Shown piece after piece: positions 32,400-61,204 of a stretch of 64,000 nt of DNA. Within the stretch, counting starts at the first letter, position 1; each line of letters begins with the position of its first letter. The notes beneath the pieces were generated by a model. That model was given only the letters and a program-made list of their open reading frames with translations, ran no database searches and was not told the DNA's origin. The position numbers were made by a program, and so were the translations under genes. Source of the stretch: Sipunculus nudus. Taxonomy: Eukaryota > Annelida > Sipuncula > Golfingiida > Sipunculidae. The stretch lies in assembly GCA_026874595.1 (NCBI GenBank), contig CM049317.1:78486288-78550287 (forward strand). Direction: 5' to 3'.

Positions 32400-32690
32400 T
32401 GGAAACCTTATAATGGGCACATCATGCTGTTACAACCTCGCTATTACAGGCAACTTTCTATCATGGTCACACCTTTACTATGGACACCTACCTATTTTGG
32501 ACAGCTCTCTATCATGGACACCTCTCCATTATGACCTTTATTACAGGTAACACTCTATTACAGCCATTACTCTATTACATGTACCATGCAGTTAGTTTCT
32601 TTATTACAGAAAATAATACATACAATCACTTCTCTATTACAGGCACTTCTCTTGTACAGGTACCAATATCTTATGGGCAAAATATATTAT
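32400..32690 (+). repeat. Degenerate minisatellite (TCTATTACAGGCAC type)
   Basis: Variants of CTCTATTACAGGCAC and CTATCATGGACACCT recur every 20-30 bp. Copies lie at 37926-38215 and, inverted, at 50729-51018. The 82-codon open frame through it is repeat-derived. Confidence 0.65.
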
Positions 32691-32927
32691 ACCTAAATAA
32701 GTTAAAGTCTTATACCAATATACAATGAAATGACATACACCCCAAAGTTTAATCTCAAATAGCTTTAGCTATTTTATAGGGAAAAAATGAAAAAAAAATG
32801 CTTATAAATAAACCTTAACAATTAAAGGTTAGAGGGATTAAAAGATAATACATTAAAGGGAGTATTATGCTGCCGATTTTTGGTGAATTCAATGGAAACT
32901 CTGAATGCCATCATGTGACCAGAATAA

Positions 32928-33243
32928 GGTGTGCACATAGCCTTTGTTGTTACGTTTCATTTGAATTACAGCTAACCGGCCAGGCATCCTATGTGCCCAT
33001 TCTCTCTGAGCCTGTTGCCTTTTCAGATGGTTACCTGGGCGATGAGCTGTCACACAAAACGAAATGACCAACTTGGGCTCCGTGTATTCCTCGCTTGGCT
33101 TTGTCTTCCAGCACAAGGTCTCATCTGATTGGACAAAAATACAGTGCTCCCCTCTGGTGTAGCAATTCAGGATACCAGGTCATAGCAAAGAGCGTTTATG
33201 ATATAAGTAGAAGGCCTATAGGTAATGCACTGTGTAAAGAGCG
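32928..33243 (-). repeat. Dispersed repeat, copy 2 of 4
   Basis: Inverted relative to 24554-24898 and clearly homologous, with the same GAGGGGAGCACTGTATTTTT-type core on the minus strand. It is identical by eye to 38454-38769. Confidence 0.75.
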
Positions 33244-34915
33244 TAGGTCTTTTGTAAATTATGTAATTTCTTGAGCATCTATTTTTGAGCAATTTTTTCT
33301 CATATACCTTCAAGAACTGCCAAGGAACTTCCCTTCACCTGCACTGGTTTTAGTACCCATGTATTCCAGGGCTAGATATATCCTAATCTGAGCTCCAGGA
33401 TAAAGCTTGCAGCTAAATTCAGTGACAGATATTAAATAGTGCTAGCTAATTATATAAACTCAAAAGATTCACCAAGTAATTATATAATCAAGGCTTACAG
33501 GCCTTGTGCGAACCCGTGCAATGGGATATACAACATATATAATGCCTCCATGCAGGCCCGTTACTTTTCAAATACATGTGTGACATGTACATGTACAATG
33601 CAAGTACTGAACATTTTGAAAATGAGTACATGCACCAATTATACAAATGTCAATGCTGAAATACAGACATGGGTGCATAAAAATCATTGTAGGTGGTACC
33701 ACCTGTCTTGTGAATGAGAAAGCCATCAAAGATAAAGTATGGATATGCAAAATTTCAGGTAGATACTTCAAAGGACTCTTCGGCTATGTGCACAGATGCA
33801 TGTAACAAGTGAAGGTGGCACCACAAGTCTTACAAGTATATAAAAACTATTTAGGTGTATAATTTCAGGCTGATATGTCAAATCATTCCTGAGGATTAAG
33901 AAGATGCATACACTGTAAAAAAATATTGAAGGCAGCGCCAATTGTGTTGCATATAATGAAGCTATATGTTAAAAACAATATGTTAAAACATAATTTAAAA
34001 GTTTTTCTTTAAGGAAATATCACTTTAAAAACATAATGTCACAACATGGAATCTTCAAAATTATACTTTGAATCATCATTAAAAAAAATTTTTGAGCACC
34101 GCAGTTTTTGGAAGATGCTTAATTTTATTATCTAAATAAAAGATTCAGTAAATTTGATTAAAAGTTCCCTTTTCAAATCAGTTATACACACTGATGGTTG
34201 GCTGAGAGAGAAACAATATAATTATGCTAATTTCCATCTCAACTATAATTCAACATTGAAATTTATATTCAATTTCACACATGTTGAAAAAGAACCCAAA
34301 GTTTTTACTCATCTGAATTAAGGAATTCCTCATATTATAAACATCCATACTTTTATATCGAAATATCACTTATAATTAGTGGACACAAATAAATATGCAC
34401 TTTGATCATTGTAACCCCTTGTATATCAGCTACTGATGTGAAAAACATATGTGTTCACATTGGTGGAAAATGAAAAATGCCTGTCTGTGCACGTGTTTGC
34501 CTGTCTCAGGCATATATGTGTGTGTATAGGTTCAGCCTATAAATACTTTTTAAATAACTTTTAACAAATACTTTAAAAATAATTATAAAATTAAAATTAC
34601 AATCTGTTTTGTGTTTTTGTATACATGCCATTTACATTATGATACTAACAGCAACTGATTCCTGTCAGCTCTTACAAACATTTTTGACATTCTAAATAAC
34701 AATTCAGACACTGACAGTTATAAGCTAGCTTATACTAATGGTTGACAATATTCTTGACTGCACCATCTCCAAAATGGCAAAGAATCCTTTAAACAAAAAC
34801 ATTATAATCATGATACTGATTACCTCCAAATTACCTCCATTGTTTACAGGGTTGTGGGTTGGTTATTACCCTGAACCTGCACAAAATTTCATCCAAATCT
34901 GTTCATAACATTTTT

Positions 34916-36093
34916 GTAAGCAAGACCAAGCAATGGCATAAAACATAACTGTTCAGCATGGTGTTTCCTGCCATGCTAATGGGAGCTTTAAACATGGATG
35001 ATGCTGGAGTAGGTCTTAGATACTGCACAGATAGGGAGCTCCTCAATCGCAGAAGTCTGTATGCTTTTATGAAAGGCATGACAACCAATATCCGTGACCT
35101 GTCTTTGCTGATGATTGCGCCCTGAATGTATCTTCAGAGTCAGACATGCAGCACACCATGGACCAGTTTTCCTGTGCATGTGACAACTTCAGGCTTACCA
35201 TCAGCATAAAGAAGACTGAAGTGATGCACCAACCAACACCATGAAAGCAATATGATGAACCCTCTATTATGGTGCATAGATCAAGTCTGAAGTGGACAAA
35301 TTCACATATCTGGGAAGCACATTGTTAAAAACAGCAATCATAGATGATGAGGTCAAAAGCAGAGTAGCAAAAGTGAGCACTGCTTTCGGTAGACTCCGCT
35401 CAAACATCTGGGAGCGTAGAGGCAAACATCTCAAAACCAAGATCCAGGTCTACAAGATAGTAGTCATCATTACCCTGCTGTATGGCTGTGAGACATGAAC
35501 TGTCTATGCTAGACATGCCAAACAACTAAAACCATTTCACCTGAACTGCCTCTGTTGACTGATGAACATTAGACGGCAAGACAAAGTTCGAGACAGAGGT
35601 CCTAACACATGCCAACCTCCCATCAATCTACACCATCTTATATCAATCCCAGGTCCAATGGTCAGATCATGTTTGCCGCATGCCAGATAAAGTCTCCCAA
35701 AACTACTCTAGTATGGAGAACTAGAGTCTGGGAAAAGATCCAATCGGAGGTCAGTTGAGGGGCTACAAGGACAGTCTCAAAGCATCACCAAAAAAACTAT
35801 CGATCAACAAAATATGTTGGAAAGGATTCAACAGCGTGGCATGCAGCTGCACTCAGATGTGTAGTAGACACTGAGATAGCATGACTAGTGTTGACCAGAA
35901 GAAAACTTGAGGTCTGCAAGGCAAGGATGGCAACTACCTCAACAGCAACCACTGACAACATGTGGGAGGTTCTTCTTTGCCTGGATTGGCCTGAAAAGTC
36001 ATCTCTGGCCACACAAAGTTAGATCAACTATAAAACCTTGATCATTGTGGTCATCTTCGCAAAGCAATGGAAGAACACCACATCATCACTAGT
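34916..36093 (+). pseudogene. Dead LINE reverse-transcriptase fragment, copy 2
   Basis: Duplicate of the LINE remnant at 29391-30569, carried along by the tandem duplication. The same frameshifts and stops are present (FADDCALN at about 35104, DKFTYLGSTL from 35295, LLYGCET to 35498), so the element was already dead before the duplication. One base is missing relative to copy 1 in the C run near 35619. Confidence 0.85.
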
Positions 36094-38453
36094 GATTGGC
36101 AATGGTCTTGATTGCACCATCTCCAAAATCGCAAAGAATCCTTAAAACCACAATACTGATTACTTCCAATGTTTGCTGGGTTGCTGGCTTGGTATTACCT
36201 TGGACCTACACAAAATGTTATCAAATTCTGTTCATAACATTTTTGGGTGATGTTGCTCACCGACAACCCATGAACATTGATAAAGTTATGATACCTTTAG
36301 CACTTTTTAGAGTTTTAATTAATGTATTACATATATAAACATGAATTAACATGTTAACTGCAAGGTCTGATAAAAAGAGTGAATAAAGAATCAGTTTATG
36401 CACCTAATCAAAGTAGACAGACAGTTATGCTTCAATAACTTTAAAAATTAGATGAAAATATTCATAAACAAAATACATGTATACCAAAATGCAATTAAAA
36501 ATTTGTTGTTCTAACAATTTCTTTTTCAAAATTAATCTAATACAATTCTGATTACTTTCCAGAATTAGAAAAGAATAAATGATAATCAATACAATATCAA
36601 TTACATCACAAGCAATTACAGTAACTTCAAATACTATTACCTTTATACCAAACTGAACTATATATATGTGTGTTATGTGTGTGTTTGTGTGTGTGAATGA
36701 TATTTACATGCCTTAACATAATCTGGACCCCCCCCCTTTCAAAAATAAATAATAATAATCGTAGATCTGCAGCTGTTTTTTCTAAGAGGATGTCAGCCCT
36801 AACCTTCATTTCACTGTCAGGTCTGCAACTGTGTCTCTTCTCCTGTATTAAACTCAGAGGTCTGCGAGTGCTTCATGGCTTGAAAACCATTTTTTTCCAT
36901 ATGGCCAGTGGACTGTGCTTTACAGTGGATTATCCTTCAAGCTCATTCAATCTTGAAGGATTTTAAAGGCTCGTACTGCTGCCTACAAATTATATCATAT
37001 GAAATAAATCATCCATGAAGAATATCTGCCAGATATATATGTACATCCATTCAGTATGTACCTTTCAAGGCCATTATTCATTCTGTAACTTTGAATACTT
37101 AAAGTAGGCAACAATTTATCAAAGATCCAGAAACTCTGACTTGTCCTGTTGCTGCATTTATTCTAAGTTATTATTTTGTGACTATATTGCATTTACCAAA
37201 TTGTTTTATATGTAGTAATCTGATCAGTTACCATATGCAGTGCTGTACAGCAAAGTCATGAAATGCCATTCAGTGGATTTTGAACCATTAAGAAGATTTT
37301 GTATTTCAATGCTTTAAAATTACACTGACACAAATTTCAAAGGCAACATTTACATCTCGAATAAACACATTTGCTCCCTACTATCAAACTGTTGGCTGGG
37401 ATGTGATCAAATTCCGGAGATACTCAGGAGTGCCATGGCCAAAGCTTGGCACACCTGTAGAAAAAAAAAATTAAGCCATATTTTCCAAGCATTAAGAACA
37501 TGATCATAAACTTAGGAAAGGTATGTATTTCAGTATATCAGGTAGACTGAAATAAGGTACTGCTCTTTATTTAGATAAAGTGATGCTTCAGTGGGATCTC
37601 CAAATTAAGTGGAAAATTTCAACCTCCAAAATGAGGAATCATAGTACTGTGAGAATAAATGCACTGGAAAAGCTCATGTGAAAACATGAAAGGCAATTTA
37701 ATAACTATATAAAATTTCAAGGGGTCAAATGATGGAAATATGTGGAATCTTGAATTGTATTTATGATAATCCTTGACGCAACAGTTCAACAAAAAAAATT
37801 GTATTACAGAGTTAATCTGTGTAAAGGGTCAAGTTCAACATTCCAAGGGCATGTCTTTTGAAACATACAAAATAAAATATTTTCATATGTCATGACCAAT
37901 TAATTTGTTTGAGAGTGTAATTACATGGAAACCTTATAATGGGCACATCATGCTGTTACAACCTCGCTATTACAGGCAACTTTCTATCATGGTCACACCT
38001 TTACTATGGACACCTACCTATTTTGGACAGCTCTCTATCATGGACACCTCTCCATTATGACCTTTATTACAGGTAACACTCTATTACAGCCATTACTCTA
38101 TTACATGTACCATGCAGTTAGTTTCTTTATTACAGAAAATAATACATACAATCACTTCTCTATTACAGGCACTTCTCTTGTACAGGTACCAATATCTTAT
38201 GGGCAAAATATATTATACCTAAATAAGTTAAAGTCTTATACCAATATACAATGAAATGACATACACCCCAAAGTTTAATCTCAAATAGCTTTAGCTATTT
38301 TATAGGGAAAAAATGAAAAAAAATGCTTATAAATAAACCTTAACAATTAAAGGTTAGAGGGATTCAAAAGATAATACATTAAAGGGAGTATTATGCTGCC
38401 GATTTTTGGTGAATTCAATGGAAACTCTGAATGCCATCATGTGACCAGAATAA

Positions 38454-38769
38454 GGTGTGCACATAGCCTTTGTTGTTACGTTTCATTTGAATTACAGCTA
38501 ACCGGCCAGGCATCCTATGTGCCCATTCTCTCTGAGCCTGTTGCCTTTTCAGATGGTTACCTGGGCGATGAGCTGTCACACAAAACGAAATGACCAACTT
38601 GGGCTCCGTGTATTCCTCGCTTGGCTTTGTCTTCCAGCACAAGGTCTCATCTGATTGGACAAAAATACAGTGCTCCCCTCTGGTGTAGCAATTCAGGATA
38701 CCAGGTCATAGCAAAGAGCGTTTATGATATAAGTAGAAGGCCTATAGGTAATGCACTGTGTAAAGAGCG
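38454..38769 (-). repeat. Dispersed repeat, copy 3 of 4
   Basis: Tandem-duplicate counterpart of 32928-33243, and inverted-repeat partner of 50175-50490. Confidence 0.75.
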
Positions 38770-39199
38770 TAGGTCTTTTGTAAATTATGTAATTTCTTGA
38801 GCATCTATTTTTGAGCAATTTTTTCTCATATACCTTCAAGAACTGCCAAGGAACTTCCCTTCACCTGCACTGGTTTTAGTACCCATGTATTCCAGGGCTA
38901 GATATATCCTAATCTGAGCTCCAGGATAAAGCTTGCAGCTAAATTCAGTGACAGATATTAAATAGTGCTAGCTACTTATATAAACTCAAAAGATTCACCA
39001 AGTAATTATTTAATCAAGGCTTACAGGCCTTGTGCGAACCCGTGCAATGGGATATACAACATATATAATGCCTCCATGCAGGCCCGTTACTTTTCAAATA
39101 CATGTGTGACATGTACATGTACAATGCAAGTACTGAACATTTTGAAAATGAGTACATGCACCAATTATACAAATGTCAATGCTGAAATACAGACATGGG

Positions 39200-39685
39200 T
39201 GCACAAAAATCATTGTAGGTGGTACCACCTGTCTTGTGAATGAGAAAGCCATCAAAGATAAAGTATGGATATGCAAAATTTCAGGTAGATACTTCAAAGG
39301 ACTCTTCGGCTATGTGCACAGATGCATGTAACAAGTGAAGGTGGCACCACAAGTCTTACAAGTATATAAAAACTATTTAGGTGTATAATTTCAGGCTGAT
39401 ATGTCAAATCATTCCTGAGGATTAAGAAGGAGCATACACTGTAAAAAAATATTGAAGGCAGCGCCAATTGTGTTGCATATAATGAAGCTATCTGAGATGT
39501 ATGCATATGCCCAATTGCAGGCTGATATATCAAAACCCTCATGAAAAATAAGCAGGGACATACACACTGCAAAAGTTATTGTAGGTGTTGTCAATCTTGT
39601 GTACAAAAAAGCCATCAAAGATGCATGAACAAGTCAAAATATCAGGCCAATACATCAAGCTTCTCTTGAGTCAGATGCATTGGGC
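39200..39685 (-). repeat. ~125-bp tandem repeat, four units
   Basis: Units beginning near 39215, 39340, 39455 and 39575 share TTGTAGGTGGTACCAC or AAGGTGGCACCAC, then CTTGTG/CTTACAAG, then TTTCAGG.TGATA..TCAAA. The mirror copy is at about 49259-49745, and a shortened copy lies at 33675-33965. Plus- and minus-strand frames here are repeat-derived. AGGTGGCACCAC words at 2516, 5888 and 6186 suggest older relatives. Confidence 0.65.
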
Positions 39686-39689
39686 TGAC

Positions 39690-40620
39690 CAGGCTTAGGT
39701 AAAAAGAAAGACAGTTGCCCCAAGTGAACCAGATAATGTGCAAGCTGCAGCTATTGCACCGAATGAATTATTGATCTGAATGTGGCTGCAGTGAGGGAAA
39801 TCTTGACCTTTTGCATATCTGATACAGTTGACAGTCTGCAAAAGCTATAAATAGATGCAGATTGAGACCTGGCCTTTTGCCACATCTGAAACAGTTTGCA
39901 GTCTGCTTAGCTATTTATATATACAGAAAAAAATTTGACATGTTGCCAAATTTGTTTCTACATACTAAAAACTTTGGCTAAAATGCTTTTCTTCAAAATT
40001 CATATTGATAAGATTTTTTATATCAAAATGTATAACAACAGATGACAATTGAAAGCAAAATCAGAATACAGATATATTTTATTCAAGGATATATCTTACA
40101 CATAACCAGGATATGCAACTGATTACTCATCTGTGAATGAACTCTTGACCTGTTGGAAAATCTGATACAGTTGGCAGTCTGCCAAAGCTATAAACAAATC
40201 CAGGCTGAAATGGCAAGCTAATTTTCCATATAAACACAATCTTGGCAAGTTGCCAATTCTGTTTATATATACTGAAAGACTTTGGCTGCAATGCTTTTTT
40301 CAAGCTAAATATTTAACAGATGCCTATTGAAAGCAAAATATGAAATCAGAATACATATATGTTTTACTCAAGGATTAACCTACACATTAGCTGGATATGG
40401 AGCTAATCATTGTCTGCACAGCTCTGCTTATAAACTTTGTTAGTATAAAAAACTACTAGCTTTATTTACCAAAGTATCTCATAGTCCTATCATTGTTAAG
40501 GTCAAATAAATCTGCCAAAAATAATTTCCCTAACCTTGAACAAAGGCCACCACTGAATAATTGTGTTATGCAATGTAAAAGAAGCTATTACAAAAGTTTT
40601 GCAGAAGGAACTATTGCAGC
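39690..40620. repeat. Palindrome-arm segment with internal ~320-bp duplication
   Basis: Words such as TCTGATACAGTTG.CAGTCTGC, AAAGCTATAAA and AACTTTGGCT recur in two blocks (about 39790-40110 and 40140-40400). A short 35-bp unit with CAGACTGCCAACT is the one present once more in the right arm. No coding signal is seen. The mirror copy is at about 48289-49255. Confidence 0.55.
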
Positions 40621-40624
40621 TCAC

Positions 40625-43600
40625 AGTTTATAATAGGCTAAAGATTAAAGTCATCACACTTTATCAAAGGTGTTGGTACTAGCCTAACCCTTAAAAGGCT
40701 CAGGTCATCACACTGACTGTCACAGTAAAATGTGCTTGTCACAAAGGTATGGGTACAAACCCTAACCCTTGAAAGACAAGTCATCACACTTGTCATAGTA
40801 AAATGTGCTTGTAACAGAGGTGAGAGTTTAACACAAAGCCTTGAAAGACAACAGGCCATCACACTATATCAAACAACAAGTCATCACACTTAATTAAAGT
40901 AAAGGGTCCTTGTCATAGAGGTATAGGGTATAACCCTAGGCCTTGAAAGACAACAAGTCATCACACTATATCGAATCAAGGAAAACAAGTCATGACACTT
41001 TAACAAAGTAAAGGGTGCTTGTCATTGAGATATTGGTACTAACCCTAACCCTGCAAAAACAAGAAATCATCACACTTGTCAGAAAATGTGCTTGTCAAAG
41101 AGATATTGGGTATAACCCTAAGCCTTGAAAGACAACAAGTCATCACACTATATCAATGTAAAGACAACAAGTCATCACACTTTATCAAAGTAAAGGGTGC
41201 TTGTCACAGAGGTATTGGTACTAAACTTGACCCTTCAAAGACAACAAGGCATCACACTTGTCAAAGTATAATGTGCTTGTCAAAGAGTTATGGAAGTAAC
41301 CTTAAGAACTGAAAGAAAACAAGTCATGACACTTTACGAAACTGAAGAGTGCTTGTCTATGAGGTATGGGGTAAAACCCTACGCCCTGAAATACAAGTCA
41401 TCCCATTTGTCAAAGTAAATGGTGCTTGTCACAAAAGTATGGGTATTTACCCTAACCTGTGAAAGACATCAAGTCATCAAAGTAAAATGTGCTTGTCACA
41501 GAGAAGGAAACAAAATCTTTACCCTTGAAAGAGAACATATCATCACAGAAAAAAATGTGCTTGTCACAGAGGTACGAGAACAAACCCTTACACTTGAAAG
41601 AGAACATGTTATCACACTTTATCAAAGTAAAGATGACAAGTCATCTCACTTTTCACAGTAAAAGGTGCTTGTCACAGAGGTATGGTAGAAACCCTTGAAA
41701 GATAATTCACCACACTTGACACAGTAAAGGGTGCTTGTCACAGAGGTATGGGTACAAACCCTAACCCTTGAAAAACAACAAGTCATCACACTTGTCCAAC
41801 TAAAATGTGCTTGTCACAGCGTGAATGGCACTAACCCTTAACCCTAAAAGACAACAAGTCATCAATAATATGACAGTATATAGTTTCTGTCACAGACCTA
41901 TGAAAGACAACAAGTCACCATAATTGTAACAATAAAAGGTGCTTATCACTGAGTTATGGTACTAACCCTAGCTCTCTATTAAATAATCTATCACACTTAT
42001 GTCAGTCAAATGTGCTTGTCACAGAGGAATGGGTACTTTCCCTAACCCTCCAAAGACAACTTGTCATCCCACTTGTCTCTGTCAAATGTGCTTGTCACAC
42101 AAGTATGGGTACTAACTCTAACCCTCCAAAGACAACTTGTCATTACCCTTTTCACTGTAAAATATGCTTGTCAAGGAGGTATGCATGGTTAATAATCCCA
42201 ACCTTTGAAAGTCAACAGGTCATCAAACTTGTCATAGTACAAAGTGCTTGTCACAGTGAGATTGGTACTAGCCCTTAACCCTGAAAGACAACAAGTCATT
42301 AAAATTATGACAGTAAAAAGTGTCTGTCACATATGTAACTGAACTAACCCCAACCCTAGAAAGTCAAAATGTCAGCACAATTGTCACAGTTTATTTGCTT
42401 TTCACATTAGCTTGTACTAACCCAAACCCTTGCAAGAAAAAACAAGTCAACACATTTGTCACAGTAAAAGGTGGTTGTCACAGAGGTATGGGTACTAACC
42501 CTTACCCTTCAAAGACAACAAGTCTTCAAAATTATAACAGTAAATAGTCTTGCCACAGATGTATTGGAACTAACCCTAACCATAGAAAGACAATAAGTCA
42601 GCTCACTTGTTGCGGTAAAAGGTGCTTGTCACAGAGGTATGGGTACTTACCCTAACCCTGACAGACAACAAGTCTTCAAAATTATGACAGTAAATAGTCT
42701 CATCACAGGTGTTTTGGAACAAACCCTAACCCTCGAAAGCAAATAAGTCAGTTGTCACATTATATTTGCTTGTCACAGAGGTATGGGTACTAACCCCAAC
42801 CCTTGAAAAACAACAAGTCATCACACTTGTCATAGTAAAGTTGGTTGTCATAGAGGGATTGGTACAAACCTTAAACCCTGAAAGACAACAAGAATTCAAA
42901 ATTATGACAGTAAAGTGTGCTTGTCACAGAGGTATTAGACTGTCATGGTATTGGTGCTTGTCACAGAGGTACATGTACTAACCCTAGCCCTTAAAAGACA
43001 ACAAGTCAGCTCACTTGTTGCGGTAAAAGGTGCTTGTCACAGAGGTATGGGTACTTACCCTAACCCTGACAGACAACAAGTCTTCAAAATTATGACAGTA
43101 AATTGTCTCATCACAGGTGTTTTGGAACAAACCCTAACCCTCGAAAGCAAATAAGTCAGTTGTCACATTATATTTGCTTGTCACAGAGGTATGGGTACTA
43201 ACCCCAACCCTTGAAAAACAACACGTCATCACACTTGTCATAGTAAAGTTGGTTGTCATAGAGGGATTGGTACAAACCTTAAACCCTGAAAGACAACAAG
43301 TATTCAAAATTATGACAGTAAAGTGTGCTTGTCACAGAGGTATTAGACTGTCATGGTATTGGTGCTTGTCACAGAGGTACATGTACTAACCCTAGCCCTT
43401 AAAAGACAACAAGTCACCACACTTGTAACAATGAAAGGTGCTTGTCACTGAGTTATTGTTCTAACCCTTCCTCTTCAAAAATATTTCATCACACTTATGT
43501 CTGTCAAATGTGCTTATCACAATGGTATGGGTACTAACTAACCCTCCAAAGGCAACTTGTCATCACACTTGTCTCAGTAAAAGCAGCTTGTAACAGAGGG

Positions 43601-43770
43601 ATCGGTACTAACCCTAATCCTTGAAAGACAACAAGCCATCACACTTTTCCCAGTAAAAGATGCTTGTCTCAGAGGTATGGTACTGATCCAAACTCTTTAA
43701 AAATTAATCATCATACTTGTCACAGTAAAAGGTGCTTGTCACAGAAATATGGGAACTAACCGTAGTCATA
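40625..43770. repeat. 76-bp satellite array in left arm, about 40 units
   Basis: The monomer contains GTGCTTGTCACAGAGGTATG, GGTACTAACCCTAACCCTTG, AAAGACAACAAGTCATCACA and CTTGTCACAGTAAAAG. Units are fairly diverged. A larger block recurs (42740-43000 and 43150-43400, offset about 408 bp). CCCTAACCC-like text occupies a fixed place in most units. Short frames are artefacts. Confidence 0.9.
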
Positions 43771-44227
43771 ACACAAAAACAAAAGACAACAACTCCTCAC
43801 TTCTCAAGTTATGCTCTATAAGCAACAGTTACACTCATCCCAACTAATCGCTATGTATACTAACTGCTGCAAGAAACAACGATTGCCCATCAGGTTTGGC
43901 CACCGGACAGTGCAGTCTCTGAGGTAATTCTCCTGTGTAATACTTTACTAATCCCATTGTAGGTATCACCAGCACAATAGGATGTTCTTAGGGGTGCCCG
44001 TCAATTTGCACCGTGGTCAACAATGTTTGGTGGCACAGATTTTTTCAACAGCCCCTCCCTGTTGGAATACATGTTGCAATTGTCACCTTTCTAGAGAGCC
44101 CCTATACTTACTGGCTGGTATGGCCTGAGGTCAGATATCCCCAACTGTTTGGATATTTCCTCTTGCAGTGCCAAAAGAGCTTGCCACTGGTGAACCAATG
44201 TTTGATTACACGCCAATCATAATTTCT
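43771..44227 (+). other. Inner end of left arm, exon-like but unassigned
   Basis: The arm end beside the loop is not satellite. A segment ending CAGTCTCTGAG|GTAATTC (about 43924) and an AG (TCCCATTGTAG, about 43964) resemble splice sites. A 69-codon plus-strand frame at 44013-44222 begins MVNNVWWHRFFQQPLPVG. I do not recognise it. The mirror frame at 44660-44896 on the minus strand differs by one Gly/Glu and by extension into the loop. Confidence 0.3.
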
Positions 44228-44681
44228 TTTACCAGCTCTGCAGGGTGCAGGCATCTAATCATTGTTTACATACTGAGCCAATCATATACCTTTCCCAGGG
44301 CAAACTGACTAGGTGTATGGCAGCTTGCCAAACTTTAAGAATCCTGTATTTCTCATAGCCTGTGAGTGGAAGGTCATTGGGAAGTCACATGCTGTGTTCA
44401 GAGCTATATAGATTGGAGCAAGTATAAATCAGAGCATGTATATAATAGGACTGGATACTGCCTACAAATTTAGTACTGCAATATACTGTGATATCTGATA
44501 GCGGACTGCAACATTTACATTATATTAAATTACCAGGAAATAAGTGTGTTTTCTGTATATATATATTATTATTTTTATTACAAAATAATCCCGAAAACTT
44601 ATTTTTATTAGTTATTCTTTTTATCTTTATTTCCCATGGCTCACTGCAGGGATTCAATATTACAAATATATTTGAGGTGGC
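44228..44681. other. Loop (spacer) of the palindrome
   Basis: 454 bp with no self-complementarity to the arms. It includes an AT-rich stretch with TATATATATATTATTATTTT (44560s). The arms end with imperfect pairing for the last 8 bases (AATTTCT retained). No gene or mobile-element end is recognised. Confidence 0.6.
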
Positions 44682-45138
44682 AGAAATTTTGATTGGCGTG
44701 TAATCAAACATTGGTTCACCAGTGGCAAGCTCTTTTGGCACTGCAAGAGGAAATATTCAAACAGTTGGGGATATCTGACCTCAGGCCATACCAGCCAGTA
44801 AGTATAGGGGCTCTCTAGAAAGGTGACAATTGCAACATGTATTCCAACAGGGAGGGGCTGTTGAAAAAATCTGTGCCACCAAACATTGTTGACCACGGTG
44901 CAAATTGACGGGCACCCCTAAGAACATCCTATTGTGCTGGTGATACCTACAATGGGATTAGTAAAGTATTACACAGGAGAATTACCTCAGAGACTGCACT
45001 GTCCGGTGGCCAAACCTGATGGGCAATCGTTGTTTCTTGCAGCAGTTAGTATACATAGCGATTAGTTGGGATGAGTGTAACTGTTGCTTATAGAGCATAA
45101 CTTGAGAAGTGAGGAGTTGTTGTCTTTTGTTTTAGTGT

Positions 45139-48100
45139 TATGACTACGGTTAGTTCCCATATTTCTGTGACAAGCACCTTTTACTGTGACAAGTATGATG
45201 ATTAATTTTTAAAGAGTTTGGATCAGTACCATACCTCTGAGACAAGCATCTTTTACTGGGAAAAGTGTGATGGCTTGTTGTCTTTCAAGGATTAGGGTTA
45301 GTACCGATCCCTCTGTTACAAGCTGCTTTTACTGAGACAAGTGTGATGACAAGTTGCCTTTGGAGGGTTAGTTAGTACCCATACCATTGTGATAAGCACA
45401 TTTGACAGACATAAGTGTGATGAAATATTTTTGAAGAGGAAGGGTTAGAACAATAACTCAGTGACAAGCACCTTTCATTGTTACAAGTGTGGTGACTTGT
45501 TGTCTTTTAAGGGCTAGGGTTAGTACATGTACCTCTGTGACAAGCACCAATACCATGACAGTCTAATACCTCTGTGACAAGCACACTTTACTGTCATAAT
45601 TTTGAATACTTGTTGTCTTTCAGGGTTTAAGGTTTGTACCAATCCCTCTATGACAACCAACTTTACTATGACAAGTGTGATGACGTGTTGTTTTTCAAGG
45701 GTTACGGTTAGTACCCATACCTCTGTGACAAGCAAATATAATGTGACAACTGACTTATTTGCTTTCGAGGGTTAGGGTTTGTTCCAAAACACCTGTGATG
45801 AGACTATTTACTGTCATAATTTTGAAGACTTGTTGTCTGTCAGGGTTAGGGTAAGTACCCATACCTCTGTGACAAGCACCTTTTACCGCAACAAGTGAGC
45901 TGACTTGTTGTCTTTTAAGGGCTAGGGTTAGTACATGTACCTCTGTGACAAGCACCAATACCATGACAGTCTAATACCTCTGTGACAAGCACACTTTACT
46001 GTCATAATTTTGAATTCTTGTTGTCTTTCAGGGTTTAAGGTTTGTACCAATCCCTCTATGACAACCAACTTTTCTATGACAAGTGTGATGACGTGTTGTT
46101 TTTCAAGGGTTGGGGTTAGTACCCATACCTCTGTGACAAGCAAATATAATGTGACAACTGACTTATTTGCTTTCGAGGGTTAGGGTTTGTTCCAAAACAC
46201 CTGTGATGAGACTATTTACTGTCATAATTTTGAAGACTTGTTGTCTGTCAGGGTTAGGGTAAGTACCCATACCTCTGTGACAAGCACCTTTTACCGCAAC
46301 AAGTGAGCTGACTTATTGTCTTTCTATGGTTAGGGTTAGTTCCAATACATCTGTGGCAAGACTATTTACTGTTATAATTTTGAAGACTTGTTGTCTTTGA
46401 AGGGTAAGGGTTAGTACCCATACCTCTGTGACAACCACCTTTTACTGTGACAAATGTGTTGACTTGTTTTTTCTTGCAAGGGTTTGGGTTAGTACAAGCT
46501 AATGTGAAAAGCAAATAAACTGTGACAATTGTGCTGACATTTTGACTTTCTAGGGTTGGGGTTAGTTCAGTTACATATGTGACAGACACTTTTTACTGTC
46601 ATAATTTTAATGACTTGTTGTCTTTCAGGGTTAAGGGCTAGTACCAATCTCACTGTGACAAGCACTTTGTACTATGACAAGTTTGATGACCTGTTGACTT
46701 TCAAAGGTTGGGATTATTAACCATGCATACCTCCTTGACAAGCATATTTTACAGTGAAAAGGGTAATGACAAGTTGTCTTTGGAGGGTTAGAGTTAGTAC
46801 CCATACTTGTGTGACAAGCACATTTGACAGAGACAAGTGGGATGACAAGTTGTCTTTGGAGGGTTAGGGAAAGTACCCATTCCTCTGTGACAAGCACATT
46901 TGACTGACATAAGTGTGATAGATTATTTAATAGAGAGCTAGGGTTAGTACCATAACTCAGTGATAAGCACCTTTTATTGTTACAATTATGGTGACTTGTT
47001 GTCTTTCATAGGTCTGTGACAGAAACTATATACTGTCATATTATTGATGACTTGTTGTCTTTTAGGGTTAAGGGTTAGTGCCATTCACGCTGTGACAAGC
47101 ACATTTTAGTTGGACAAGTGTGATGACTTGTTGTTTTTCAAGGGTTAGGGTTTGTACCCATACCTCTGTGACAAGCACCCTTTACTGTGTCAAGTGTGGT
47201 GAATTATCTTTCAAGGGTTTCTACCATACCTCTGTGACAAGCACCTTTTACTGTGAAAAGTGAGATGACTTGTCATCTTTACTTTGATAAAGTGTGATAA
47301 CATGTTCTCTTTCAAGTGTAAGGGTTTGTTCTCGTACCTCTGTGACAAGCACATTTTTTTCTGTGATGATATGTTCTCTTTCAAGGGTAAAGATTTTGTT
47401 TCCTTCTCTGTGACAAGCACATTTTACTTTGATGACTTGATGTCTTTCACAGGTTAGGGTAAATACCCATACTTTTGTGACAAGCACCATTTACTTTGAC
47501 AAATGGGATGACTTGTATTTCAGGGCGTAGGGTTTTACCCCATACCTCATAGACAAGCACTCTTCAGTTTCGTAAAGTGTCATGACTTGTTTTCTTTCAG
47601 TTCTTAAGGTTACTTCCATAACTCTTTGACAAGCACATTACACTTTGACAAGTGTGATGCCTTGTTGTCTTTGAAGGGTCAAGTTTAGTACCAATACCTC
47701 TGTGACAAGCACCCTTTACTTTGATAAAGTGTGATGACTTGTTGTCTTTACATTGATATAGTGTGATGACTTGTTGTCTTTCAAGGCTTAGGGTTATACC
47801 CAATATCTCTTTGACAAGCACATTTTCTGACAAGTGTGATGATTTCTTGTTTTTGCAGGGTTAGGGTTAGTACCAATATCTCAATGACAAGCACCCTTTA
47901 CTTTGTTAAAGTGTCATGACTTGTTTTCCTTGATTCGATATAGTGTGATGACTTGTTGTCTTTCAAGGCCTAGGGTTATACCCTATACCTCTATGACAAG
48001 GACCCTTTACTTTAATTAAGTGTGATGACTTGTTGTTTGATATAGTGTGATGGCCTGTTGTCTTTCAAGGCTTTGTGTTAAACTCTCACCTCTGTTACAA

Positions 48101-48284
48101 GCACATTTTACTATGACAAGTGTGATGACTTGTCTTTCAAGGGTTAGGGTTTGTACCCATACCTTTGTGACAAGCACATTTTACTGTGACAGTCAGTGTG
48201 ATGACCTGAGCCTTTTAAGGGTTAGGCTAGTACCAACACCTTTGATAAAGTGTGATGACTTTAATCTTTAGCCTATTATAAACT
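45139..48284. repeat. 76-bp satellite array in right arm
   Basis: Mirror of 40625-43770, so telomere-like words appear here as GGGTTAGGGTTAG on the plus strand. Arm-specific differences are single bases by eye. Confidence 0.9.
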
Positions 48285-50174
48285 GTGAGCTGCAATGGTT
48301 CCTTCTGCAAAACTTTTGTAATAGCTTCTTTTACATTGCATAACACAATTATTCAGTGGTGGCCTTTGTTCAAGGTTAGGGAAATTATTTTTGGCAGATT
48401 TATTTGACCTTAACAATGATAGGACTATGAGATACTTTGGTAAATAAAGCTAGTAGTTTTTTATACTAACAAAGTTTATAAGCAGAGCTGTGCAGACAAT
48501 GATTAGCTCCATATCCAGCTAATGTGTAGGTTAATCCTTGAGTAAAACATATATGTATTCTGATTTCATATTTTGCTTTCAATAGGCATCTGTTAAATAT
48601 TTAGCTTGAAAAAAGCATTGCAGCCAAAGTCTTTCAGTATATATAAACAGAATTGGCAACTTGCCAAGATTGTGTTTATATGGAAAATTAGCTTGACAGA
48701 CTGCCAACTATTTCAGATTTGGCAACAGTGCCATTTCAGCCTGGATTTGTTTATAGCTTTGGCAGACTGCCAACTGTATCAGATTTTCCAACAGGTCAAG
48801 AGTTCATTCACAGATGAGTAATCAGTTGCATATCCTGGTTATGTGTAAGATATATCCTTGAATAAAATATATCTGTATTCTGATTTTGCTTTCAATTGTC
48901 ATCTGTTGTTATACATTTTGATATAAAAAATCTTATCAATATGAATTTTGAAGAAAAGCATTTTAGCCAAAGTTTTTAGTATGTAGAAACAAATTTGGCA
49001 ACATGTCAAATTTTTTTCTGTATATATAAATAGCTAAGCAGACTGCAAACTGTTTCAGATGTGGCAAAAGGCCAGGTCTCAATCTGCATCTATTTATAGC
49101 TTTTGCAGACTGTCAACTGTATCAGATATGCAAAAGGTCAAGATTTCCCTCACTGCAGCCACATTCAGATCAATAATTCATTCGGTGCAATAGCTGCAGC
49201 TTGCACATTATCTGGTTCACTTGGGGCAACTGTCTTTCTTTTTACCTAAGCCTGGTCAGCCCAATGCATCTGACTCAAGAGAAGCTTGATGTATTGGCCT
49301 GATATTTTGACTTGTTCATGCATCTTTGATGGCTTTTTTGTACACAAGATTGACAACACCTACAATAACTTTTGCAGTGTGTATGTCCCTGCTTATTTTT
49401 CATGAGGGTTTTGATATATCAGCCTGCAATTGGGCATATGCATACATCTCAGATAGCTTCATTATATGCAACACAATTGGCGCTGCCTTCAATATTTTTT
49501 TACAGTGTATGCTCCTTCTTAATCCTCAGGAATGATTTGACATATCAGCCTGAAATTATACACCTAAATAGTTTTTATATACTTGTAAGACTTGTGGTGC
49601 CACCTTCACTTGTTACATGCATCTGTGCACATAGCCGAAGAGTCCTTTGAAGTATCTACCTGAAATTTTGCATATCCATACTTTATCTTTGATGGCTTTC
49701 TCATTCACAAGACAGGTGGTACCACCTACAATGATTTTTGTGCACCCATGTCTGTATTTCAGCATTGACATTTGTATAATTGGTGCATGTACTCATTTTC
49801 AAAATGTTCAGTACTTGCATTGTACATGTACATGTCACACATGTATTTGAAAAGTAACGGGCCTGCATGGAGGCATTATATATGTTGTATATCCCATTGC
49901 ACGGGTTCGCACAAGGCCTGTAAGCCTTGATTAAATAATTACTTGGTGAATCTTTTGAGTTTATATAAGTAGCTAGCACTATTTAATATCTGTCACTGAA
50001 TTTAGCTGCAAGCTTTATCCTGGAGCTCAGATTAGGATATATCTAGCCCTGGAATACATGGGTACTAAAACCAGTGCAGGTGAAGGGAAGTTCCTTGGCA
50101 GTTCTTGAAGGTATATGAGAAAAAATTGCTCAAAAATAGATGCTCAAGAAATTACATAATTTACAAAAGACCTA

Positions 50175-50490
50175 CGCTCTTTACACAGTGCATTACCTAT
50201 AGGCCTTCTACTTATATCATAAACGCTCTTTGCTATGACCTGGTATCCTGAATTGCTACACCAGAGGGGAGCACTGTATTTTTGTCCAATCAGATGAGAC
50301 CTTGTGCTGGAAGACAAAGCCAAGCGAGGAATACACGGAGCCCAAGTTGGTCATTTCGTTTTGTGTGACAGCTCATCGCCCAGGTAACCATCTGAAAAGG
50401 CAACAGGCTCAGAGAGAATGGGCACATAGGATGGTTGGCCGGTTAGCTGTAATTCAAATGAAACGTAACAACAAAGGCTATGTGCACACC
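50175..50490 (+). repeat. Dispersed repeat, copy 4 of 4
   Basis: Inverted-repeat partner of 38454-38769, with a small substitution patch near 50434-50438. Confidence 0.75.
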
Positions 50491-52424
50491 TTATTCTGGT
50501 CACATGATGGCATTCAGAGTTTCCATTGAATTCACCAAAAATCGGCAGCATAATACTCCCTTTAATGTATTATCTTTTGAATCCCTCTAACCTTTAATTG
50601 TTAAGGTTTATTTATAAGCATTTTTTTTCATTTTTTCCCTATAAAATAGCTAAAGCTATTTGAGATTAAACTTTGGGGTGTATGTCATTTCATTGTATAT
50701 TGGTATAAGACTTTAACTTATTTAGGTATAATATATTTTGCCCATAAGATATTGGTACCTGTACAAGAGAAGTGCCTGTAATAGAGAAGTGATTGTATGT
50801 ATTATTTTCTGTAATAAAGAAACTAACTGCATGGTACATGTAATAGAGTAATGGCTGTAATAGAGTGTTACCTGTAATAAAGGTCATAATGGAGAGGTGT
50901 CCATGATAGAGAGCTGTCCAAAATAGGTAGGTGTCCATAGTAAAGGTGTGACCATGATAGAAAGTTGCCTGTAATAGCGAGGTTGTAACAGCATGATGTG
51001 CCCATTATAAGGTTTCCATGTAATTACACTCTCAAACAAATTAATTGGTCATGACATATGAAAATATTTTATTTTGTATGTTTCAAAAGACATGCCCTTG
51101 GAATGTTGAACTTGACCCTTTACACAGATTAACTCTGTAATACAATTTTTTTTGTTGAACTGTTGCGTCAAGGATTATCATAAATACAATTCAAGATTCC
51201 ACATATTTCCATCATTTGACCCCTTGAAATTTTATATAGTTATTAAATTGCCTTTCATGTTTTCACATGAGCTTTTCCAGTGCATTTATTCTCACAGTAC
51301 TATGATTCCTCATTTTGGAGGTTGAAATTTTCCACTTAATTTGGAGATCCCACTGAAGCATCACTTTATCTAAATAAAGAGCAGTACCTTATTTCAGTCT
51401 ACCTGATATACTGAAATACATACCTTTCCTAAGTTTATGATCATGTTCTTAATGCTTGGAAAATATGGCTTAATTTTTTTTTTCTACAGGTGTGCCAAGC
51501 TTTGGCCATGGCACTCCTGAGTATCTCCGGAATTTGATCACATCCCAGCCAACAGTTTGATAGTAGGGAGCAAATGTGTTTATTCGAGATGTAAATGTTG
51601 CCTTTGAAATTTGTGTCAGTGTAATTTTAAAGCATTGAAATACAAAATCTTCTTAATGGTTCAAAATCCACTGAATGGCATTTCATGACTTTGCTGTACA
51701 GCACTGCATATGGTAACTGATCAGATTACTACATATAAAACAATTTGGTAAATGCAATATAGTCACAAAATAATAACTTAGAATAAATGCAGCAACAGGA
51801 CAAGTCAGAGTTTCTGGATCTTTGATAAATTGTTGCCTACTTTAAGTATTCAAAGTTACAGAATGAATAATGGCCTTGAAAGGTACATACTGAATGGATG
51901 TACATATATATCTGGCAGATATTCTTCATGGATGATTTATTTCATATGATATAATTTGTAGGCAGCAGTACGAGCCTTTAAAATCCTTCAAGATTGAATG
52001 AGCTTGAAGGATAATCCACTGTAAAGCACAGTCCACTGGCCATATGGAAAAAAATGGTTTTCAAGCCATGAAGCACTCGCAGACCTCTGAGTTTAATACA
52101 GGAGAAGAGACACAGTTGCAGACCTGACAGTGAAATGAAGGTTAGGGCTGACATCCTCTTAGAAAAAACAGCTGCAGATCTACGATTATTATTATTTATT
52201 TTTGAAAGGGGGGGGGGGTCCAGATTATGTTAAGGCATGTAAATATCATTCACACACACAAACACACACATAACACACATATATATAGTTCAGTTTGGTA
52301 TAAAGGTAATAGTATTTGAAGTTACTGTAATTGCTTGTGATGTAATTGATATTGTATTGATTATCATTTATTCTTTTCTAATTCTGGAAAGTAATCAGAA
52401 TTGTATTAGATTAATTTTGAAAAA

Positions 52425-52480
52425 GGTTAGGGTTAGGGTTAGGTTAGGGTTAGGGTTAGGGTTAGGGTTAGGTGTTAGGG

Positions 52481-52513
<33 letters not shown>

Positions 52514-52599
52514 TAGGGTTAGGTTAGGGTTAGGGTTAGGTTAGGGTTAGGGTTAGGTTAGGGTTAGGGTTAGGGTTAGGGTTAGGGTTAGGGTTAGGG

Positions 52600-52671
<72 letters not shown>

Positions 52672-52722
52672 GGTTAGGGTTAGGGTTAGGGTTAGGGTTA
52701 GGGTTAGGGTTAGGGTTAGGGC
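52425..52722 (+). repeat. Interstitial telomere-repeat array (TTAGGG)n
   Basis: About 48 units of TTAGGG with the G-rich strand reading rightward, the orientation of a right-hand chromosome end. Variants include TTAGG and TTTAGGG units scattered in the array and one GGTGTTAGGG. The left border joins the palindrome arm without spacer. The right border is GGGCTAGGGTCTTAG, then unrelated DNA. No CCCTAA follows, so this is not a head-to-head telomere fusion in simple form. Confidence 0.95.
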
Positions 52723-54110
52723 TAGGGTCTTAGACTTAACATAAGTTGAAAACGTGTATTATCAGTCCTAAATACAACTTAATTTGTGTATTTTTCAACT
52801 TTACAGAGAAAAATCTTAAGTTGAAAATTACGTTCAACTTAATCTTGTATTGGTCCTTTCATTTCAACTTAAGGTGTCCTTAAGTTTATCAACTTAAGCT
52901 TATGTTGACTCCAAACACTTGTTTTTTCGTGTCCATGTTGGCTTAGTGGACTCTAGGAGGTAGCGCCACCTCGGAGCTTAGCGTGTACTTGCCAATTTTT
53001 GGTATCTTTACATATGTTACGGTCTTAAACTTAGAATGTTATGGTCGGAAACTTAAATTTGAAAAACAGTTAAATGTCAAGAAAAAGACAGTTTTTCAAA
53101 CTTACAAGTTGTCAAAATAGTGGGCCCTTTCCTTCTGAGTAAGAGAAAAATAAAAGCGCATATTTAATATGCCGAAAAAACTGAACATGTACTTGCCACT
53201 TTTCGGTATCTTTTCATGTGATATGGTCTTAAACTTTGAATGTAATGGTCGGATATGGTCTTAAACTTAGAATGTTATGGTCGGAAACTTAAAGTTGAAA
53301 AACTGTTTGTGTCAAGAAAATGGGAGTTTTTCAAGCTTACGAAGGGTCTAAATAGTGTGCTCTTTCCTTACAAGTAGGAGAAAAATAAAAGCGCATATAT
53401 AATATGTTGAAAAAAAACTGAACTTGTACTTGCCCTAACTTACATTGTTATGTTCATAATCTTAATCCTAATCAGAATACAGTGGACACTTTTAAATATG
53501 TATGTTTGTATGTATGTATGTAACCCTAGTCAACTTATGTTTAGGACCATAACATTAAGTTTAGGACCATAATCAATAAAATTACCATTTCAGACCTGAG
53601 CAATGACCTTTGGAGTCCGGTTGGTCAGTCAGACTCCATCGGGTCAAGAAAAAATGAGTTCTCCTTGAGTTGAATCTAAATGTCAACTTGACCTTATGTT
53701 GAAATCTTAAATTTGTCAACTTTGGCTATGTTGATCAACTTAAGCTTATGTTGAAATCTTAATTTTGTCAACTTCTTATGTCGAATGTCAACTTAAGCTT
53801 ATGTTGAATCTTATGTTTATCAACTTAATATGTTGAATGTCAACTTAAGCTTATGTTGAATCTTATGTTTATCAACTTAGGTTAAGTTGATAAACTTAAG
53901 GTTATGTTGAATCTTAAGTTTGTCAACTAAAGCTTATGTTGAATCTTAAGTTGATTAACTTAGGTTAAGTTGATAAACTTAAGCTTATGTTGAATCCTAA
54001 GTTGATCAACTTAGGCTACGTTGATTACTTAAGTTGAATCTGAATGTTATGTTGAATATTTAAGTTGAATATGAATAATAAAGACTTTATACTTAAAATT
54101 GTGTTCCGTT
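52723..54110. repeat. Subtelomere-like short repeats (TTAAGCTTATGTTGAA type)
   Basis: From 53640 onward, variants of AACTTAAGCTTATGTTGAAT and CTTAAGTTGATCAACTTAG recur at 30-40 bp spacing. They include a perfect 20-bp palindrome at 53996-54015 (CCTAAGTTGATCAACTTAGG). Near 53015-53420 a ~200-bp direct repeat contains ATGGTCTTAAACTTAGAATG, GTCAAGAAAA and TAAAAGCGCATAT. A (TATG)n tract lies at about 53496-53522. No gene is seen. Confidence 0.7.
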
Positions 54111-54158
54111 CATACATACATACATACATACATACATACGTACAGACATACACATATA
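54111..54158. repeat. (CATA)n microsatellite
   Basis: Mostly CATA tetranucleotides with CGTACAGACATACAC interruptions, directly left of the 168-bp satellite. Confidence 0.9.
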
Positions 54159-54170
54159 CAACTTTACATG

Positions 54171-54765
54171 TGGAAATGCTGAAAAATGATAGTACTTTTG
54201 GTCCTGCTCCAGACAATGAGGGATTTTCTCAGTATTTGAACATTGTCGCTTATGCCGATAAGTCATCCGGCTTTTTTGAAAATGTCGGTAGTGTCCATAA
54301 GTTAATTTAGTCTGAAATGTGAACCGTTAAACATATAAGTGGAGATGCTGAAAAATATAGTACTTTTAGTCCTAGTGCAGGCAATAAGGGATTTTCTCAG
54401 TATTTGAACATTGTCGGTGTTGCTGATAAGTTATTCGGCTATTTTGAAAATGTCGGTAGTGTCGATAAGTTAATTTAGTCTGAATTGTGAACCGTTAAAT
54501 ATATAAATGGAAATGCTGAAAAATTATAGTACTTTTGGTCCTACTCCAGGCAATAAGGGATTTTCTCAGTATTTGAACATTGTCGCTTTTGCCGATAAGT
54601 CATCGGGCTATTTGGAAAATGTCGGTAGTGTCGATAAGTTATTTTAGTCTGAAATGTGATCCATTAAATACACATATTGAAATGCTAAAAATTAAAGTAC
54701 TTTTGGTCCTACTCCAGGCAATAAGGGATTTTCTCAGTATTTGAACATTTTCGCTTATACAATGA
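54171..54765 (+). repeat. 168-bp satellite, block 1 (3.5 units)
   Basis: The monomer contains GGAAATGCTGAAAAATTATA, GTACTTTTGGTCCTACTCCA, GGCAATAAGGGATTTTCTCA, GTATTTGAACATTGTCGC, TTTTGCCGATAAGTCATCC, GGCTATTTTGAAAATGTCGG and TAGTGTCGATAAGTTATTTT. Unit starts are spaced 168-169 bp. The block 54171-54754 appears identical to 63417-64000. Confidence 0.95.
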
Positions 54766-55898
54766 CCACACTAGTTACAATGAGTACCCTAGTTTTAATG
54801 GCATTGCATGGATTTTCCTGAATCCAGGTTTGCTTTCAGATTTTACAAATTTACCTCGTTATTATGAAGAACCTCGTTATTATGAAAAACCTCGTTATAA
54901 CGAAAAAATGGTTATAATGAACAAAACCGTTATATCTGAGGTCTGAAATGATAATCTATTGACTATGGTTCTAAACTTAGTGTTATGGTCCTAAACATAA
55001 GTTACCCTATAGGGTTATAGCAAACTAGGGTTATCGCGGCTATACTTAAAAAGGAGCATCAATTCTTTAAAGTCGGTAAAAAAATAGGGAAACGATAATA
55101 AAAGTATAAAAACACTCAAAATACCTGCAATAGAGTTTGTTTTACCGAACTGTAGCAAGTAGAAACGTTAATACTTTCATATCATGTCAAGATTAGAACT
55201 TAAAGTCACTAAAAATAAAAATTTCTTAAAATTTCAAATTATGCTAACAACTTTTCGAATAAACTTGGAAAAATCTATTTTTTCCCAAGGGTTAGTTCTG
55301 TAATCGACAACCTATTGTATTTGGAAAAGAAAACAAACGAAATATGCCTTTCGCATAATTTATGAGCAAATTTCAAAGTTAAAAATTAAAAATTCAAAAT
55401 GTTTATTTTTTTTATTTGAATATTGAATTTCTATTTTTGCGTTCCAGACGGTGACAAAAACGGATAACAGACGACAGTTAACCAAATAAATTATGTTTTC
55501 TGTGTTTTTACTGTGTCTTTTAACGCTTCAAATCAGTCACGGTTAGCCTTAAGTTGAATTTTGTAATTTCGGTCCTAAATTTTTAAACTCAATTTTCTCC
55601 CAAAAAAAAGTTGAGGTTGATTTTTTTCTTTTACAAAAAAAGAAGTTTTACTGACTTTTACAAATATCCTAAGTTTAAAGGTTGAAACTTAAAAAATGAC
55701 AAAGTTTTCTGAACATGGACAAAACGTGGCACCTCGGCTGAATTTGCCAGGATCTCAGAGTTCCCCTGGTCTCTGAGCTTAATAAATAACATGATCTAAC
55801 CCTAACCATTCTGTACGTGTCTATATATGCTCTACTCTAGGACGTGGCGCCCCCTAGTCAATAGTATGGTCCTAAACATAGTGTTATGGTTTGATAAC
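54766..55898. other. AT-rich DNA with a short CCTCGTTATTATGA array
   Basis: At 54856-54935 a few CCTCGTTATTATGAAGAA-like units match the large array at 56.9-58.5 kb. GTTATGGTCCTAAAC-like words lie at about 54962-55002 and 55865-55890. The rest has no recognised feature. Confidence 0.4.
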
Positions 55899-58545: not shown

Positions 58546-58620
58546 GAAAAGTGAGAACAAAGTGAGAAAAGTGATAAAACTGAGAAGAAAGTGAGAAGAA
58601 AGTGAGAAGAAAGAAGAAAT
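58545..58620 (+). repeat. Purine-rich GTGAGAAGAAA tract
   Basis: Variants of AAAGTGAGAAGAAAGTGAGA in tandem, directly after the 18-bp array and before a return to subtelomere-like repeat. Confidence 0.8.
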
Positions 58621-61095: not shown

Positions 61096-61204
61096 GCATG
61101 AACCGTTCAATATATCGGTGGAAATGCTGAAAAATACTAGTACTTTTGGTCCTACTCCAGGCAATAAGGGATTTTCTCAGTATTTGGACATTTTCGCTTA
61201 TGCC

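Follow-up and report, generated by a model that had tools for sequence, protein, structure and literature searches.

The right-hand end of chromosome 12 of Sipunculus nudus, a worm of the annelid lineage, carries a long inverted duplication whose outer end passes directly into telomeric repeats and then into a subtelomeric block shared with other chromosome ends. The window analysed here is a stretch of 64,000 nucleotides (positions 78,486,288-78,550,287 of contig C12), and its position 64000 is the final base of the chromosome-scale sequence, so that the window represents the last 64 kb of the chromosome. All coordinates given below without a contig name are positions in this window.

Inverted arms, spacer and telomeric tract

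Comparison of the window with itself by blastn revealed a left arm in the original orientation (36521-44227, + strand) and a right arm that is its inverted copy (44682-52425, - strand). The two arms, read as 36521-44227 against 52425-44682, are 99.37% identical over 7,744 columns. The MAFFT alignment pairs 7,707 bases, of which 12 (0.156%) are substituted, and has two gaps, one of 2 bp and one of 35 bp. Between the arms lies a spacer of 454 bp (44228-44681, + strand) in the same order as in other copies of the repeat family described below; it is unduplicated here, and its sequence is itself a family repeat elsewhere in the genome. The two long inverted arms around a 454-bp loop that had been reported in the original prediction are therefore real.

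A TTAGGG array, delimited by Tandem Repeats Finder at 52425-52728 (+ strand), begins at the outer end of the right arm. It is 304 bp long, 40 of its 50 units are canonical and it contains no CCCTAA. The array reads TTAGGG on the + strand, as expected of a right-hand chromosome end, and no TTAGGG array is found at the outer end of the left arm. Telomeric repeats in this orientation at one arm only had been predicted, and this is borne out, although the predicted end of the tract (52722) was 6 bp short. A more degenerate proximal part and a purer distal part of the tract were considered as a sign of polarity and rejected: the difference (18/25 against 22/25 canonical units) is small and was given no weight. 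Beyond the tract, the window holds the initial 11.3 kb of the subtelomeric block (52729-64000, + strand), and the assembly stops inside this block. No N is present anywhere in the window.

The proposed fold-back junction within a dispersed repeat family

Both arms belong to a family of repeats that is dispersed in the genome. With a query taken from the centre, we obtained at least 84 matches (best 40 of 1,292 candidates scored), and a query from the outer arm gave 45 (best 40 of 67 candidates scored). The latter comprise 3 places at this chromosome end, 12 full-length copies elsewhere with 92-94% identity and one partial copy on contig C13 (two matches), while 28 weaker or shorter matches were left out of the counts. 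No inverted repeat of at least 80 bp with more than 85% identity was present in six 10-kb stretches around family copies (L011-L016).

Six family copies that carry the junction were fetched, and all of them run through the spacer in the same direction and on into ...GGCAGAATATTT.... This indicates that the left arm and the spacer are in the original order and that the right arm is the inverted copy. At the fold-back junction (44671-44690, + strand), the window keeps the family order up to ...GGTGGCAGAA and then reads ...GGCAGAAATTTTGATTGG, which corresponds to the left arm reversed. The window and the family copies diverge at AGAA, a motif found on both sides that constitutes an exact 4-bp inverted microhomology at the edge of the spacer; here the six family copies stand in for the lost original. 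Such a microhomology of at least 4 bp was obtained in 2.5% of 20,000 simulated random junctions. Distal to the spacer, the family copies carry on past the junction and the window does not, a comparison made with family copies and not with an allele of chromosome 12. Family sequence past ...GGCAGAATATTTTAAC beside the left-arm variants of chromosome 12 would mark the chromosome as it was before the event.

The original prediction had left open whether a broken end folded back or fused with its sister. Because the spacer of 454 bp is unduplicated and inverted microhomology lies at its edge, we prefer a fold-back, and a plain sister fusion is less favoured. We also noted that the spacer lacks sequence before 44580 (44475-44581) that measures 0.43 kb in L011-L013 and ∼1.46-1.49 kb in L014-L016.

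Truncation of the right arm at the telomeric tract

Past the point that corresponds to the arm end, all 13 other family copies (L035-L047) and both copies of a local tandem duplication (see below) read AAAAAG(T or A)... and continue, 2 of the 13 switching to other DNA ∼12 and 38 bases later. TTAGGG is found at this point in none of the 13 family copies and in neither of the tandem copies. Only the right arm reads GAAAAAG/GTTAGGG (52418-52428, + strand), with an overlap of 1-2 bases with the telomere repeat. As all the other copies run on, the right arm is truncated here and attached to telomeric repeats; its end is not a boundary of the repeat. TTAGGG thus stands on truncated non-telomeric sequence, with an overlap in the range of 0-4 bp expected of de novo telomere addition.

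Order of events and independent mutation of the arms

The outer end of the left arm sits in a direct tandem duplication of 5.5 kb, which aligns as 28437-33968 with 33963-39494 (99.6% identity). Over 5,509 bp, its first copy (28437-33962, + strand) and its second copy (33963-39494, + strand) are separated by 13 substitutions and five gaps of 1 bp each. From 36521 on, the second copy is the outer left arm and the template for the outer part of the right arm. In a three-way comparison, which left out one site at the tandem boundary and a poly-C run with a different form in each sequence, 8 events group the right arm with the second copy against the first, 1 sets it apart from both and 0 group it with the first copy. 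This 8:0 partition indicates that the tandem duplication is older than the inversion and that the left arm served as template.

The arms have also changed since. With 12 family copies used as outgroup, the left arm carries the changes at positions 43775 (where 2 of the 12 have a gap) and 44220, and the right arm the one at 44152. The 35-bp gap is a loss from the left arm, since of 12 family matches that span it 11 deviate from full length by no more than 4 bp and the remaining one falls short by 16 bp. These private mutations point to independent change of each arm after the duplication, which would be hard for an artefact to imitate. The mismatch at 44220 had been considered as a trace of imperfect priming and was rejected: all 12 family copies show that the right arm has the original base, the left arm having mutated later.

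The S. nudus genome paper describes an assembly from PacBio high-fidelity (HiFi) reads (N50 14,008 bp, 72.63x) built with hifiasm, followed by haplotig purging and Hi-C, and gives a heterozygosity of 2.03% (PMC10212961). Two haplotypes at this level would be expected to differ by ∼156 substitutions over the arms, ∼13 times more than the 12 observed. Moreover, a query of positions 24500-25600 had a full-length match at this end only, among the best 40 of 4,361 candidates scored, its 42 further matches all lying on a common repeat inside the query; among these candidates, no second copy of this chromosome end was seen.

A subtelomeric block behind telomeric tracts at many chromosome ends

Counting the window, the first 951 bp after the tract are present, with ∼100% identity, at no fewer than 17 places, which are spread over 10 chromosomes and 12 of the 34 chromosome ends. 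Seventeen is a lower bound, as the best 40 of 175 candidates were scored and partial and diverged matches were not counted. It is this 951-bp start that was compared at all 17 places, and the blocks are known from parts: the 11.3 kb in the window and two 10-kb pieces of a block on contig C4. The block starts lie at most 366,993 bases from a chromosome end, and 16 of the 17 are in telomere orientation. They are carried by the ends of contigs C3, C4, C5, C6, C8, C9, C12, C13, C15 and C17.

The proximal side of the other 16 copies was also fetched. In 17/17 copies, the block opens with the same CTAGGGTCTTAGACTTAACATAAG directly behind a TTAGGG tract (52722-52760 in the window, + strand), and the sequence that precedes the tract varies from one group of loci to another. 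Tandem block starts are spaced by 73.6, 81.6, 86.1 and 95.1 kb, and the four distal copies of these pairs have identical 30 bases before the tract. Hence, the layout is that of Y'-like elements: near-identical copies at many ends in one orientation, a telomeric tract on the proximal side, and tandem copies separated by tracts and sharing a fixed distal end. These data support one of the two explanations originally offered for the internal position of the tract, namely that DNA was added beyond the telomere. Telomere-like tracts that divide subtelomeres have been described in yeast and humans (PMC6410037).

The left ends of contigs C5 and C15 match the last part of the window (99.96% and 99.60%, respectively), and we conclude from this that these contigs, like C12, stop inside the block. 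In a sample of 2-kb contig ends (18 fetched, one of them all N), none of the 17 readable ends contained a telomere array, and block repeats were found only at both ends of contig C3. Genome-wide, the pattern (TTAGGG)5 followed by a base other than T occurs in 30 runs, all of them within 1.1 Mb of an end and 25 in telomere orientation, and a control pattern gave no occurrence. The five wrongly oriented runs (C11:342-361 kb, C13:68 and 148 kb, C17:1.096 Mb) would reflect inversions or scaffold orientation errors. A telomeric array of at least 690 bp, mostly perfect, was also seen 404 kb inside the left end of contig C2 (404083-404774, with a further run near 405570).

Diverged relatives of the block start, with 72-80% identity, adjoin TTAGGG runs on contig C9 near 693 kb and on C17 near 1.096 Mb, which suggests that the boundary between tract and block is old. 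The tracts at the 17 junctions all differ, both in uninterrupted length (91-792 bases, the longest reaching the edge of the fetched stretch) and in their variants, and the longest run common to the window and another copy is 72 bp of pure repeats. These unlike tracts slightly favour the view that each end had its own telomere before it received the block. Many of the variants are homopolymer indels, a kind of error that HiFi reads also make, and for this reason we put no weight on them; the attempt to identify a donor end by tract variants was likewise abandoned as uninformative.

Open reading frames in the parts of the block that were read reach 222 amino acids, the longest lying in an 18-bp satellite, and no gene was identified there. 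Within the block, short GGTTAGGGTTAGGGTTAG stretches at 59649-59670 and 60898-60919, in the orientation of the tract, are followed by AACTTAAG-type repeats as near the block start. On contig C4, shortly before the next tract, a segment (L065, 8861-9704) is 87% like window positions 54936-55763, near the block start; given this likeness, the block itself may be a duplication. CpG observed/expected ratios are 0.10-0.25 by segment in the arms and 0.25-1.41 in 500-bp bins beyond the tract. This contrast was considered as a sign of foreign DNA and rejected, the flank being the worm's own subtelomere.

Proposed mechanism and alternative explanations

The core of the original prediction, an inverted duplication with telomere repeats at its outer end, is upheld. 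We consider it likely that the locus arose as a fold-back inverted duplication that was stabilised by telomeric repeats and by the shared subtelomeric block. The right end of chromosome 12 would have been lost through a break inside a copy of the dispersed repeat. The resected end would have folded back and paired at the inverted AGAA microhomology, and synthesis or replication through the hairpin would have copied the arm in reverse, the unduplicated spacer being what remains of a 454-bp loop. The inverted copy, or a dicentric derived from it, would then have ended or broken at ...GAAAAAG, and this end would have gained (TTAGGG)n and, distally, the shared block through recombination with another chromosome end. 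The order and polarity of the copies, the microhomology, the truncation private to the right arm, the mutations private to each arm, the identity of the block starts and their restriction to chromosome ends, and the tract before every copy found are, as far as the assembled sequence goes, direct readings; the break, an intermediate in the form of a hairpin or a dicentric, and delivery of the block by recombination are steps that we infer. Our estimate applies to the chain of products. The first two alternatives discussed below would arrive at this product by a different path. They overlap with our scheme, and the likelihoods we assign are not meant to sum to one.

Telomerase may have healed the end, but an identical product would result if an existing tract had been captured directly together with its block. 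Within the fold-back scheme, we lean slightly towards healing by telomerase first, followed later by arrival of the block, and give nearly even chances to capture of tract and block together.

Taken as an explanation in its own right, telomere capture or translocation holds that the broken inverted end was joined straight to an existing tract and block, with no telomerase step. The presence of the block behind a tract in all 17 copies is what this would produce, yeast translocations described in PMC12709191 join broken ends to interstitial tracts and then Y', and inverted duplications with translocations are among the human cases in PMC3907307. Each of the 17 tracts nevertheless has its own length and variant pattern, as if a telomere predated the block, and the AG overlap at the joint fits telomerase equally well; capture is a serious possibility to which we give somewhat less than an even chance.

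Template switching, by microhomology-mediated break-induced replication (MMBIR) or fork stalling and template switching (FoSTeS), would have copied the left arm in reverse at a collapsed fork and then jumped to a subtelomeric TTAGGG, with no hairpin-capped or dicentric chromosome. The product and the short microhomology at the inverted joint would be the same, and the nearby tandem duplication and the sequence missing from the spacer suggest repeated template errors. We regard this route as rather unlikely, because the tandem duplication is older than the inversion and the two are therefore not one event, and because fold-back ordinarily yields just what is seen here, one clean inverted copy (7.7 kb) next to a short spacer.

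An assembly or library artefact, such as a missed adapter, a fold-back read or joined haplotypes, would gain from the location of the window at a contig end, in repeats, where continuity comes from the assembly and not from reads. The private changes at 43775 and 44220 in the left arm and at 44152 in the right arm, the 35-bp loss from the left arm and the unduplicated 454-bp spacer all argue against it, and we judge it very improbable. A head-to-head join of two haplotypes was rejected on the 12 substitutions observed against 156 expected, and a telomere-telomere fusion on the absence of a CCCTAA tract after the TTAGGG tract. Accordingly, the second explanation originally offered for the internal tract, that the assembly joined two ends, is disfavoured: there is no CCCTAA partner and no N, and tract and arm are each shorter than the HiFi read N50 of 14,008 bp. 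A mobile element or natural unit that comprises the palindrome and ends in TTAGGG might be thought of, as the outer arm has 13 other copies within its dispersed family, but can be set aside almost entirely; like a transposon with long inverted repeats, which was rejected on the same counts, it is contradicted by the finding of TTAGGG at this point in 0/13 of these copies and of an inverted copy in 0/6 of the examined 10-kb stretches.

Several points weigh against the fold-back scheme as we propose it. No donor of the tract and block can be named, because the 17 tracts are unlike in length and in variants as far as the junction that they share, and plain copying from tract to tract would predict some common variants. 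The 0.43-1.49 kb lacking from the spacer implies that a single fold-back is too simple an account of the event or of its history, and a 4-bp microhomology is weak on its own. Physical continuity rests on the assembly and not on reads. Moreover, the block start was found at only 12 of the 34 ends, and an original end of chromosome 12 was not seen, so that a terminal deletion is something we infer. Finally, gene conversion between the arms could fake their youth and part of the relationship with the second tandem copy.

A broader idea concerns the block itself. A standard large subtelomeric cassette that seeks telomeric repeats might maintain S. nudus chromosome ends and rebuild broken ones, any TTAGGG end being a landing site; we offer this as speculation that is probably not correct. 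If it held, the same first bases (CTAGGGTCTTAG) would always attach, the cassette would bring its own telomeric tract at the other side and the fold-back end would have been normalised. The unlike tracts and the two relatives diverged by 20-28% at a like boundary would then mean that a mobile element had landed repeatedly and independently, rather than that ends had simply exchanged sequence.

Comparison with known systems

Fold-back inverted duplication with telomere capture is already known from patients and from mutant yeast. In humans, inverted duplications that arise by fold-back often lie beside terminal deletions (Hermetz et al. 2014, PMC3907307). The cases described there share with the S. 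nudus locus an unduplicated spacer, inverted microhomology at its edge (2-8 bp at 13 junctions there, 4 bp here), an inverted copy that ends in TTAGGG or in a translocation, and a short overlap with TTAGGG, which is present at half of the telomere joints in that series. They differ in their longer spacers (766-70,466 bp against 454 bp); here, in addition, the duplication is found in the reference genome of a wild animal, has mutated since, and bears a shared subtelomeric block instead of a bare telomere.

In yeast strains with defective Mre11 nuclease or Sae2, foldback inversions described in PMC10622511 and PMC7467729 likewise involve a hairpin at short inverted repeats and a dicentric intermediate, and the derivatives are stabilised by a captured or, more rarely, an added telomere. 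Those inversions depend on a genetic defect and on selection, whereas the present event is natural. The yeast Y' elements described in PMC12709191 resemble the S. nudus blocks in being near-identical at many ends, mostly in one orientation, and in having telomeric repeats between tandem copies, and broken yeast ends gain a tract and a Y' block through recombination. The block starts of S. nudus are 74-95 kb apart, and the blocks thus larger than Y'; the likeness described here is one of layout.

At the S. nudus locus, the product persists in an animal reference genome with its steps in legible order: tandem duplication, fold-back, truncation, telomeric repeats and subtelomeric block. Wild isolates of Caenorhabditis elegans reportedly include a case in which a damaged natural chromosome end was rebuilt with telomere repeats and duplicated subtelomeric DNA. 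The occurrence in this worm of Y'-like subtelomeric blocks bounded by telomeric tracts makes the regain of a full subtelomere by broken natural ends testable between individuals. Typical alleles differ ∼13 times more than the two arms do, and we would therefore expect the rearrangement to be polymorphic still, provided that no gene conversion takes place between the arms. The string 'telomer' is absent from the main text of the S. nudus genome paper (PMC10212961), and a limited literature search turned up no account, for this species, of the chromosome end or of the blocks.

Other features of the window

Scans for tRNA genes and against Rfam gave no matches in the window. The left arm contains a satellite of ∼76 bp with ACCCTAACCCT motifs (40665-43764, + strand), with its mirror image at ∼45148-48244 in the right arm. 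This satellite belongs to the dispersed family and is longer elsewhere, reaching at least 4.7 kb in the family copy L016. The ACCCTAACCCT motif is also present in a satellite of ∼77 bp at 18946-22081. A pattern scan of viral contigs for three satellites gave no match for any of them. Further repeats are found at 8386-16498 and 22289-23099, namely a 100-bp satellite that is rich in GC and a tandem repeat of 413 bp that carries GCTACCGCGCA motifs. Finally, a decayed remnant at 29590-30500 resembles, as judged by eye, an RTE-type reverse transcriptase.

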